64,000 nucleotides of DNA from Bradyrhizobium sp. ISRA464. GTDB lineage: Bacteria > Pseudomonadota > Alphaproteobacteria > Rhizobiales > Xanthobacteraceae. The position numbers and the translations under genes were made by a program. The notes beneath the pieces are model-generated. The model had not been told where the DNA came from. It saw only the letters and a program-made list of their open reading frames with translations, and did not search any database. Of the stretch, positions 7,141-55,242 are shown piece after piece. Location of the stretch: contig NZ_CP094526.1 of assembly GCF_029910095.1 (NCBI RefSeq), positions 620,001 through 684,000 on the forward strand. Reading direction: 5' to 3'. How positions within the stretch are numbered: the stretch's first letter is position 1; each line of letters opens with the position of its first letter.

Positions 7141-7181
7141 CGGGCTCCCCCTCCCGCTTGCGGGGGAGGGTTGGAGTGGGA
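7141..7181. repeat. Dispersed palindromic repeat, family 2 (CTCCC-GCTTGC-GGGGAG)
   Basis: The core CCCTCCCGCTTGCGGGGGAG is an inverted repeat with a TT centre. Related cores occur at 18940-19055, 32216-32264 (inside mutS), 43560-43678 and 46045-46070, with weaker relatives at 40175-40340 and 55199-55220. It sits between the GH13 gene and mmcB and may act as a transcript-end hairpin. Confidence 0.7.
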
Positions 7182-30243: not shown

Positions 30244-30254
30244 ATCGGTGCCTC

Positions 30255-30286
30255 GTAGCCCGGATGGAGCGCAGCGTGACCCGGGG
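30255..30286. repeat. Left arm of a split family-3 inverted repeat
   Basis: GTAGCCCGGATGGAGCGCAG continues as CGTGACCCGGGG. It matches the reverse complement of 31397-31428 at 27 of 32 positions by hand count. In intact copies the two arms are about 25 bases apart; here 1,110 bases holding one gene separate them. Confidence 0.75.
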
Positions 30287-30307
30287 TCAGTTGAGCCGCT
30301 GATCAGG

Positions 30308-31345: not shown

Positions 31346-31396
31346 CGCCTATCCTCGCAGCATTCGCCGGGTGATGGAAGGTACGTAACCAACCAA

Positions 31397-31428
31397 CCCC
31401 GGATTTCGCTTCGCTGCATCCGGGCTAC
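31397..31428. repeat. Right arm of a split family-3 inverted repeat
   Basis: CCCCGGATTTCGCTTCGCTG followed by CATCCGGGCTAC, four bases before the mutS stop codon. It pairs with 30255-30286 across the HEAT-like gene. Confidence 0.75.
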
Positions 31429-31432
31429 GGAA

Positions 31433-34192
31433 TTATTGCTTCGGCAGTTTTGCCTTCAGCGCATAGAGCGCCTCCAGCGCCTCGCGCGGCGACATCTCGT
31501 CGGGATGCAGCGCCTTCACTGCTTCCACCAGCAAATCCGCCTCGCTCGGCGGCGCGTCCTCAGTGGCGGCGCGGGAGGGCACGGCGAACAGCGGCAGGTC
31601 GTCGACCAGCGCACGCGCGGTCTGGCCGCGGTCCTGTGCTTCCAGTTTTGCCAGCACCGATTTGGCGCGCGCGATCACGGCGGGCGGCAATCCTGCAAGC
31701 TTCGCGACCTGGATGCCGTAGGAGCGGTCGGCCGAGCCCGGCAGCACCTCGTGCAGGAACACGACGTCGCCCTGCCATTCCTTCACGCGGACTGTGGCGT
31801 TGAACATCCGCGGCAGCTTGGCCGAGAGCGCGGTCAGCTCGTGATAATGCGTGGCGAACAGCGTGCGGCAGCGATTGCTCTCGTGCAGATGCTCGATCGC
31901 GGCCCAGGCGATCGAGAGCCCGTCGAAGGTCGCGGTGCCGCGGCCGATCTCGTCGAGGATCACCAGCGACCGCTCGCTCGCCTGGTTGAGGATCACGGCG
32001 GTCTCGACCATCTCGACCATGAACGTGGAGCGTCCGCGCGCCAGATCGTCGGCGGCGCCGACGCGCGAGAACAGGCGATCGACGATGCCGAGCCGCGCGC
32101 GCGACGCCGGAACGAACGAGCCGATCTGCGCCAAGAGCGCGATCAGCGCGTTCTGGCGCAGGAAGGTCGACTTACCGGCCATGTTCGGGCCAGTGATCAG
32201 CCAGAGCTGGCCGGCCCCCATCCTACCCTCCCCCGCTTGCGGGGGAGGGTAGGGTGGGGGTACCGGCGACAGATCGCAGGCATTGGCGATGAACGGCTGG
32301 CCGTCGCGCTTTAGCGCCTGCTCGACCACCGGATGACGTCCACCCTCGATGGCGAAGCCGAGCGAGCCGTCGACCTCGGGCCGCACGTAATTATCGTCAA
32401 CGGCGAGCTTGGCCAGCGCGGTCGCGACGTCGAGCATCGCAAAGGCATGCGCGGCGTTTCGCAGATCGTCGCTGGCGGCGAGCGCCATCGCGCTCAGCCG
32501 ATCGAAGATCTCCAGCTCGAGATTGAGCGCGCGCTCGCCGGCATTCGCGATCTTGGCCTCGGTCTCGCCGAGCTCCGATGTGGTGAAGCGGATCTGTCCG
32601 GCCAGCGTCTGGCGATGGATGAAGGTGGCGTTCAAGGGCGGCGCCAGCAGCTTGTCGCCGTGCTGGGCAGTGACCTCGACGAAATAGCCGAGCACATTGT
32701 TGTGCCGGATCTTCAGCGTCTTGATGCCGGTGTCCTCGGCGTAGCGCGCCTGCATCGCGGCGACCACGAGGCGCGAGGCATCGCGCAGGTTCCGGCTCTC
32801 GTCGAGCGCGGCTTCATAGCCCTCGCGGACGAAGCCGCCGTCGCGCTTGATCAGCGGCAGTTGCTCGCTCAATGCGCGGGAAAATTCCTGCGCGAGATCG
32901 CGCGAGGGCCGGCGCAGCGCCGCCATCACGGCGGCGATCTCGGCCGGCGGATTATCGAGCTGCGCCAGCAGCTCGAGCGCCTGGTCGGCGGCCAGGATGC
33001 CGTCGCGCAGGCTGGCAAGGTCGCGCGGGCCGCCGCGGCCGACCGAGAGCCGCGCCAGTGCGCGCGACATGTCGGGCGCCGCGCGCAGCACGGTTCTGAC
33101 GTCTTCGCGCGCGGCGCTGTCGGCGACGAAGGCCGAGACGGCGTCGAGCCGCCGCGCGATCACGGCAACGTCGGTCAGCGGTGCGGCAAGGCGCTGCGCC
33201 AGCAGGCGCGAGCCCGCCGCAGTGACAGTGCAGTCGATCGCATCGAGCAGTGAGCCGCGACGTTCGCCGGCGAGCGTGCGCGTCAGTTCGAGATTGGCGC
33301 GGGTCGCCGGGTCGATCGCCATCGTGGTGCCGGCGGCCTCGCGCGCCGGCGGCGACAGCGGCGGACGCTTCCCCACCTGGGTGCGGTCGATATAGGTCAC
33401 CGCGGCGGCCGCGGCGGTTGCCTCCAGTCGCGACATCGCCGAGAGGCCGTCCATGGTCGCGACCGCGAAATAGTCGCACAGCCGCCGCTCGGCGGTGGCG
33501 CTGTCGAACACGTCGCGGGTCAGCGGCGTCACCGACGGCAGCTCGCGCAAGGTCGGCGCAAGCTCCGTGTCGCTATAAAGCGCATCGGTGACGATCGCCT
33601 CGTTCGGGTTGATGCGCGCCAGCGTCGCCGCAAGTTCCGCGGTCGAGCACTCCGTCACCATGAATTCGGAGGTCGAGATGTCGATCCAGGCAAGCCCGAG
33701 CCGGTCGGCGCCGGCCGAACCGCGGGCACGGGCGATCGCGATCAGATAGTTGTTGGTGCGGGCGTCGAGCAGCGTGTCCTCGGTCAGGGTGCCCGGCGTC
33801 ACCAGCCGCACCACGCCGCGGCGGACCACGCTCTTGTTGCCGCGGGCGCGCGCCGCCGCCGGATCCTCGGTCTGCTCGCACACTGCGACGCGATGTCCGG
33901 CGCCGATCAGGCGATGTAGATAATCCTCGGCGCGTTCGACCGGCACGCCGCACATCGGGATGTCCATGCCCTGATGCTTGCCGCGCTTGGTCAGGACGAT
34001 GCCAAGCGCCTTCGAGGCGATCTCGGCATCCTCGAAGAACAGTTCGTAGAAGTCGCCCATCCGGTAGAACAGCAACAGCCCGGGATGGGCCGCCTTGATT
34101 TCCAGATACTGTTCCATCATCGGCGTGACGCGCGACGGCGCCTCGGCGGGAGCAGATTCGGGCGGAACGGGGATGGACTGCTGGATTGTCAT
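31433..34192 (-). CDS. mutS: DNA mismatch repair protein MutS
   Basis: 919 residues from the ATG at 34192; the in-frame extension to 34246 is repeat sequence. The mismatch-binding Phe-x-Glu motif is in [14 protein letters not shown] near the N-terminus. Walker [10 protein letters not shown] is near 664-672, Walker B and the signature follow in [17 protein letters not shown], and the helix-turn-helix is at the C-terminus. Just before the ATPase core (about residues 644-657) the protein carries [14 protein letters not shown], encoded by a palindromic intergenic-type repeat inserted in frame. All catalytic parts are intact, so it should still function in mismatch repair. Confidence 0.96.
32216..32264. 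repeat. Family-2 palindromic repeat inserted in frame inside mutS
   Basis: A perfect hairpin at 32224-32251: 13-base arms TACCCTCCCCCGC and GCGGGGGAGGGTA with a TT loop, flanked by CC..GGGGGTACC. The core equals the intergenic palindromes at 7145 and 43660. It encodes a Pro/Gly-rich insert of about 14 residues just upstream of Walker A. Confidence 0.85.
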
Positions 34193-34193
34193 C

Positions 34194-34290
34194 AGAGCGT
34201 TTTCGAGAGAAGTGGGCACCGGTTCGCGTGAAGAAAACGCGTCCAAACAAGAATCTGGTGCCCGGTTCTGATCTCATCAGAACCGACCGG
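34194..34290. repeat. Diverged family-1 repeat abutting the mutS start codon, plus hairpin
   Basis: The core AGTGGGCACCGGTTC matches family 1, here with arms AGAGCGTTTTC and GAAAACGCG. Next to it, GGTTCTGAT-CTC-ATCAGAACC (34264-34284) is a perfect 9-bp hairpin. It begins two bases upstream of the mutS ATG, so the mutS leader is made of repeat sequence. The rest of the gap to pcaF (34291-34506) should hold the divergent promoters; I see no gene. Confidence 0.65.
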
Positions 34291-43559: not shown

Positions 43560-43678
43560 CACCTCTCCCGCTCGCGGGGGAGGTCGGTGCGCGCGGCGCG
43601 CCGCGTGGGGGTTCTCTCCACAGTGTGACTCGTGGAGGGAGCCCCCACCCCAACCCTCCCCCGCAAGCGGGAGAGGGA
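43560..43678. repeat. Family-2 inverted repeat inside the efflux operon
   Basis: Arms CTCTCCCGCTCGCGGGGGAG and CCTCCCCCGCAAGCGGGAGAG flank GTGGGGGTTCTCTCCACAGT and its complement GTGGAGGGAGCCCCCAC. It lies between the emrA-like and emrB-like genes and could lower expression of the distal gene. Confidence 0.8.
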
Positions 43679-46044: not shown

Positions 46045-46070
46045 CCCCCTCTCCCGCAAGCGGGGGAGGT
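46045..46070. repeat. Family-2 palindrome between zur and the DMT permease gene
   Basis: CCCCTCTCCCGCAAGCGGGG followed by GAGG: a GC-rich hairpin, possibly ending the zur transcript. Confidence 0.65.
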
Positions 46071-54973: not shown

Positions 54974-55242
54974 GGGTTAGTCCTCCCGGCAGGAATTGGT
55001 GCTGACAGGATTTAGCCATGAACCGCTGGATTGCACCATCACCATCACCGCCGGCAGATGCAGATCATGTGCGACGCCTATCTGTGTCGTCTTGTCAGGC
55101 CCGGCTGCCATCTCGAGTATCGCAGCGGCGGCCCGGGTCTCGGCGTCGGCAATGCCGAGGTCTGCAACTAGAGCGCGCTCGCCGCGAAGGAACTGTGCTC
55201 ACTCCCCGCAAGCGGGAGAGGTGCACCGAATCTGCCGCTGGA

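Follow-up and report, generated by a model that had tools for sequence, protein, structure and literature searches.

A palindromic repeat in frame ahead of Walker A in Bradyrhizobium mutS, and its scattered occurrence among relatives

The DNA analysed, here called the window, is a stretch of 64,000 nucleotides from the single-contig, 8.46 Mb genome of Bradyrhizobium sp. ISRA464 (hereafter G000). Positions 31433-34246, on the minus strand, hold mutS, encoding the DNA mismatch repair protein MutS, as one open frame of 937 codons from TTG. Note that an alternative ATG start, at 34192, corresponds to residue 19. The product is a MutS1 protein; Pfam domains MutS_I to V are all present and the NCBIfam models NF003810 and TIGR01070 score above cut-off. 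Inside the gene lies a near-perfect palindrome (32215-32260, no strand assigned). Its 22-nt arms, at 32215-32236 and 32239-32260, pair at 21 of 22 positions, with one mismatch, around a TT centre. In 1000 codon-shuffled versions of mutS, the perfect arm with a 2-nt loop was never longer than 12. RNA folding of 121 nt spanning the palindrome gave -72.1 kcal/mol (z -6.05 against shuffles). The original prediction, made from the letters of the window, was of a palindromic repeat in frame within an intact mutS. The arms, the core, the open frame and the chance test bear this out. The TT centre was also correctly placed, but the arms, given as 13 bp, are longer; the perfect core is 15 bp.

In the MutS of most Bradyrhizobium, the corresponding loop reads SPxPxQKSGQ; we call this loop empty, and one that carries a repeat filled. 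In G000, a 51-nt segment (32213-32263, minus strand), encoding the 17 residues V662-A678, replaces the 18-nt loop xPxQKS of the empty proteins. Six usual loop residues are thus swapped for 17, in frame, directly ahead of the Walker A strand. The Walker A region itself (GPNMAGKST, residues 686-694; 32165-32191, minus strand) is unchanged, 7 residues past the segment, and residues 686-689 and 691-694 are invariant among 74 sequences. An extra Pro/Gly-rich segment ahead of Walker A had been foreseen and is present as residues 662-678. The event, proposed as an insertion, did place a repeat in frame; it was not a pure insertion, rather six codons were replaced by seventeen.

We then considered the protein. 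In an AlphaFold model of MutS (mean pLDDT 87.3; 74 sequences), the stretch 661-680 is modelled as coil (block means of pLDDT 63) and is bordered by confident strands at 655-658 and 681-685. The best-matching solved MutS, 7ou2, which we take to be the E. coli protein, has a short turn at this position. The model suggests that the segment is a tolerated surface linker. Substitution patterns indicate purifying selection. Among genus pairs, the five that include one or more filled genes gave dN/dS of 0.02-0.10 and two empty ones gave 0.05-0.06, and filled genes G657 and G785, from another genus, gave 0.14 against each other. Given the five domains, these dN/dS values and the low-confidence coil, MutS looks functional, and the lasting repair defect raised in the original prediction finds no support.

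Our next question was how widely the loop is filled. A search of the genus with the filled fragment matched 259 of 265 genomes, of which nine are filled (132-145 bits). The remaining listed matches score no more than 88 bits, and unlisted matches, below 84.4 bits, are counted as empty by score alone. Nearly all of the empty Bradyrhizobium loops read share xPxQKS. The nine filled genes have a common junction and no stop within the matched stretch. Across the order, 380 of 397 genomes matched and, among the matches listed, G000 and G103 alone gave filled scores. Comparison with related strains, as proposed, shows the segment to be absent from most, and its presence in nine genus genomes means that it is not strain-specific. 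The same nine of 259, with the order-wide result, rule out an insert common to rhizobial MutS. The best-matching proteins include those of Bradyrhizobium sp. ORS 86 and ORS 111, the closest filled relatives, 98% identical over the searched region. Among the best 120 protein matches, a list skewed toward filled MutS because the query contains the insert, 118 have the searched Walker A motif and, by eye, a repeat-like filling; two were left unscored. An assembly artefact is unlikely, since the same codons are filled in three other single-contig genomes (G208, G249 and G053) and in many protein records.

Four lineages whose mutS genes are 83-89% identical in the body have exactly the same 46-nt palindrome, even at synonymous sites. 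Conservation is higher in the insert than in the flanks. This long symmetric form, allowing up to 3 mismatches, was found in nine of 257 genus genomes, as a single copy in each and in mutS in seven; the pattern passes over the diverged inserts of two filled genomes, G053 and G227. One related copy, in G208, lies in another gene. Separately, a MutS-loop fragment match in G142 (C1:1298111-1298302) falls in a 393-aa frame, its 192-nt span lying between the filled and empty lengths.

The filled genes are scattered in the mutS phylogeny. In a loop-free tree of 61 mutS genes, hand-chosen as the nine filled plus 52 empty, the filled genes need seven changes, six of them forced by starred branches, and a single clade for all nine is rejected (p-AU 1e-23). 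Since 31 of 500 label shuffles were as low as observed, part of this distribution may be descent; the filled label is weakly clustered at most. A wider tree used 130 of 135 rows, five duplicates being dropped, and needs 14 changes, compared with a shuffled mean of 17.9 and a minimum of 14.

Flank comparisons were made with sister empty genes and with the best filled gene. Upstream of the insert, at 150-300 nt, the sisters are closer for both G000 (0.95 against 0.87) and G103 (0.98 against 0.91). Over the same distance downstream, the sister is closer for G000 (0.95 against 0.91), and for G103 the filled gene scores 0.94 against 0.92 for the best chosen sister. Within 75 nt, flank similarity does not tell filled genes and sisters apart. 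For G227, G228 and G053, filled genes are marginally the better match over the nearest 30 nt, and in several carriers besides G000 and G103 the closest flanks resemble filled and empty genes equally. In G103, the 30 nt immediately downstream match a sister exactly. At 75-150 nt upstream, G000 is less like its sisters (0.85), a dip that would fit a tract but proves none. No donor tract for a loop exchange emerged from these flank comparisons.

Filled loops also occur beyond Bradyrhizobium. A family-wide search matched 374 of 391 genomes, and among the loci read, filled loops occur in at least five other genera: g152 (G785 and G657), g171 (G730 and G908), g143 (G648, G826 and G716), g153 (G658) and g162 (G667, with a longer filling). 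Three further fillings are doubtful, being shortened in G711, in another register in G792 and, in G777, near a contig start. Some of these palindromes are perfect but have other arms (ACCCTTCCC in G785, TCCCTTCCC in G657 and TCGCTACCTT in G826), and others are decayed, for example in G648, G716 and G908. The mutS of G826 (L370) carries two palindromic inserts: one lies 45 codons before Walker A and the other, a palindrome that is perfect over its 48 bp, 17 codons before it. A pattern closely related to the long symmetric form is dispersed in some of these genomes, with 25 copies in G667, 18 in G826, 7 in G658 and 5 in G716. A different pattern search, across genome contigs, gave mostly chance hits among the matches listed. 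Repeat-like fillings of the same loop were seen in two distant MutS, L112 (a Verrucomicrobiales MAG) and L179. The L179 loop peptide is presumably a sphingomonad repeat.

Of 19 filled genes checked, 18 translate the palindrome in the same register. The arms also show compensatory changes: across 12 inserts, both partners have changed in five of the 22 pairs. These 12 rows represent 15 of 18 inserts, four identical ones being merged; the omitted L156, L367 and L369 are imperfect palindromes, and leaving them out favours the pairing count. The covariation score was higher than in any of 500 shuffles or any slid version; these controls do not remove the relatedness of the inserts. As a side observation, in L162 (Rhodopseudomonas pseudopalustris DSM 123) and in L243 (G777), the contig begins near the mutS palindrome, with dissimilar sequence ahead of it; the assembly may have broken at the repeat.

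We turned to the repeat family within G000. The genome has 86 strict-core copies, a survey confined to strict rather than degenerate cores, and in 77 of these one arm is GCGGGAGAGG. In the window, besides mutS, strict cores start at 43562, 43655 and 46048. The first two form a paired copy of this related, mostly asymmetric family (43562-43676, cores about 93 bp apart) and the third spans 46048-46069. Degenerate copies lie at 7148-7170 and near 55200. No strand is assigned to any of these. The mutS copy is symmetric and longer, and the longer symmetric form was found in G000 solely in mutS. It had been proposed that the mutS palindrome belongs to the same family as the intergenic palindromes of the window. 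The copies are indeed related, but the arms differ, which rules out a recent copy of the strain's own intergenic family.

Comparison with elements found inside Rickettsia genes was also part of the original prediction and is apt. Like Rickettsia palindromic elements, as described in part of PMC3733652, the mutS copy is a palindromic repeat in frame in a coding gene. Here, relatives have the gene without the repeat and the genome has further copies, the 86 above. The host differs, and the likeness is one of description.

Are other genes entered in the same way? The suggested search for the palindrome inside other genes of G000 yielded three, so that four genes in all, among the 86 strict-core sites, are judged to be entered in frame. 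Besides mutS, these are dnaE2 (C1:5466613, L418; NF004225, 952.7 bits, above cut-off), an adjoining imuB-like gene (C1:5470965, L419; Pfam IMS and IMS_C, the name ImuB being our assignment) and a cisplatin damage response ATP-dependent DNA ligase (C1:1258721, L400; TIGR04120, 700.4 bits). The four were called from codon-position G+C filtering, searches against protein families and a reading of 17 candidate rows. In most other coding frames the palindrome is 46-91 codons from the frame start, taken by eye as upstream of the true start, and two long frames with no Pfam match (L011 and L420) were taken as non-coding. The translated palindromes of dnaE2 and the imuB-like gene are paired or clustered. 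That of the ligase is a paired palindrome of about 60 codons, at a site where relatives differ widely. Among the 26 dnaE2 loci printed from the best 30, 15 have a paired palindrome peptide and one a related peptide with a stop; among 29 ligase loci, likewise from the best 30, 24 appear by eye to carry repeat-type inserts and three have a short linker. Both lists are skewed, as the queries contain the insert.

In other genomes, the gene set is different. The 18 loci with the best matches to the long symmetric pattern, a form other than the strict core, comprise six in mutS, four where the filter used gave no spanning coding frame and eight in six other genes. None of the six is a repair gene: B12-dependent ribonucleotide reductase (scanned in G159; twice in G010, the same protein by eye), indolepyruvate ferredoxin oxidoreductase, an RND permease, BoxC, LeuS, and TsaC, where the palindrome lies between the two domains. 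These six genes tell against a general bias to repair genes. Four repair or mutagenesis genes out of four in G000 may be chance or a local effect; note that dnaE2 and imuB, as neighbours, are not independent cases.

How did mutS acquire its insert? On balance, we favour a dispersed palindrome that was inserted elsewhere, followed by short-tract spread of the filled loop as a tolerated linker. The repeat, a kind frequent in certain GTDB relatives from this family, sits in a loop between two strands before Walker A, and its translation would form a flexible, Pro/Gly-rich surface linker. First insertion may have occurred in a lineage with a dispersed long symmetric palindrome, such as that of G667, G826 or G658. 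The filled loop could then have passed between mutS genes by short-tract homologous exchange; each Bradyrhizobium recipient would then keep largely native flanks and gain a single copy of the form. Hairpin-templated correction may keep the palindrome near perfect. As the loop tolerates length, MutS function would be essentially unchanged. Spread of a filled allele is suggested because the long form occurs once per genome, mostly in mutS, with largely native flanks. Similarly, one copy per genus genome, set against dispersal in other genera, favours allele spread over fresh insertion from local copies. In Helicobacter, short imports are described, with a mean of 28 bp (PMC9426483, consulted in part).

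Independent insertions are a lesser possibility, which we doubt but take seriously. Here, a transposition-like process would strike the MutS position, as a preferred and tolerated target, separately in each lineage. At least six changes within the genus are in keeping with this, and the different arms in other genera would also fit independent insertions. So would the palindrome 45 codons before Walker A in G826, similar palindromes read in frame within other genes and the fillings of the distant L112 and L179. Conversely, in those Bradyrhizobium carriers that were searched, hardly any copy of the long symmetric form lies outside mutS, leaving no obvious local source. Moreover, one register in nearly all carriers and one junction in nine genus genes are unexpected if insertion is random. 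We think it very unlikely that the insert entered once, in an ancestor, and was then lost many times in Bradyrhizobium. Several genera of the family are filled at the same loop and the filled label clusters weakly, which speaks for such descent, but repeated loss would not restore the near-uniform xPxQKS of empty loops, except through exchange, and the insert is more conserved than its flanks. Least probable of all is that the insert alters MutS or makes mutS switchable (for instance if the palindrome is deleted and the frame shifts) and persists because it raises or modulates mutation rate: a general proposal for repeats in repair genes (PMC3733652), hypermutation driven by mobile-element excision in a Vibrio mutS (PMC5296598; both sources seen in part) and the four repair or mutagenesis genes of G000 speak for it, but dN/dS as low as in empty genes, intact domains, a loop modelled as disordered and the six non-repair genes do not.

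These data bear on earlier work. A 2013 study described palindromic repeats in frame in genes, suggested a preference for replication and repair genes, and proposed that they might act as mutators; its survey included Bradyrhizobium strains (Di Nocera et al. 2013; PMC3733652, from the parts available). The GTAG and CGTC REPs described there resemble the mutS palindrome family in being short, in forming many head-to-head intergenic pairs and in lying, in some cases, in frame in genes. Repair and replication genes with such repeats include UvrABCD, RecBCD, Pol I, DnaE2 and a DNA ligase; the word mutS is absent from the main text. Unlike those REPs, the family here has longer arms, a 2-nt centre and no end tags that we could see. 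By eye, the ends of the mutS copies and of the printed intergenic copies have no unpaired GTAG tag, and the stem is longer than the 8-9 bp of the CGTC family, which has AT at the start and a 4-5 nt loop (PMC3733652). Br-REP1 and Br-REP2 of Bradyrhizobium japonicum are palindromic repeats of the same genus, but have other consensus sequences and, in the portion of PMC5082802 seen, are placed in intergenic regions and 3'-UTRs. In Vibrio and other Beta- and Gammaproteobacteria, mutS is likewise a recurrent target, there of mobile elements whose trees disagree with those of their hosts. Those elements are 4 to >150 kb, encode integrases and are associated with an HTPMMQQ motif (PMC5296598, in part), whereas ours is a geneless, 46-bp palindrome before Walker A. 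Among titles and the beginnings of abstracts, in a literature set of partial coverage without supplements, we found no report of a palindromic repeat in mutS, of this MutS site and its recurrence in scattered relatives, or of the four-gene set in one genome.

Close relatives with and without the same translated palindrome form a natural MutS series, and this would allow direct measurement of how well a conserved ATPase core tolerates repeat insertion. The old suggestion that palindromic repeats favour repair genes can now be tested through named genes in one genome. The distribution of the mutS loop, for its part, suggests exchange of very short tracts between species. A bolder proposal joins these threads: repeats would favour repair and mutagenesis genes, the Walker A loop would be a privileged site whose filled allele crosses species in very short DNA, and inserts may tune mutation or recombination. 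We regard this as speculative and rather improbable.

Lastly, we looked for a tyrosine transposase gene flanked by the palindrome, as expected of a RAYT-associated REP. No core lies within 5 kb around a 275-aa Y1_Tnp frame at C1:4573380, nor in 3 kb around the one frame read among 14 others. The fourteen Y1_Tnp frames, at C1:590815 and 13 other places in G000, have identical scores and are, by our reading, an IS200-like element. Closer to mutS, GTAGCCCGGATG and its reverse complement, at 30252-30290 and 31396-31431, flank the gene beside it; we take these to be a GTAG-type REP-like sequence.
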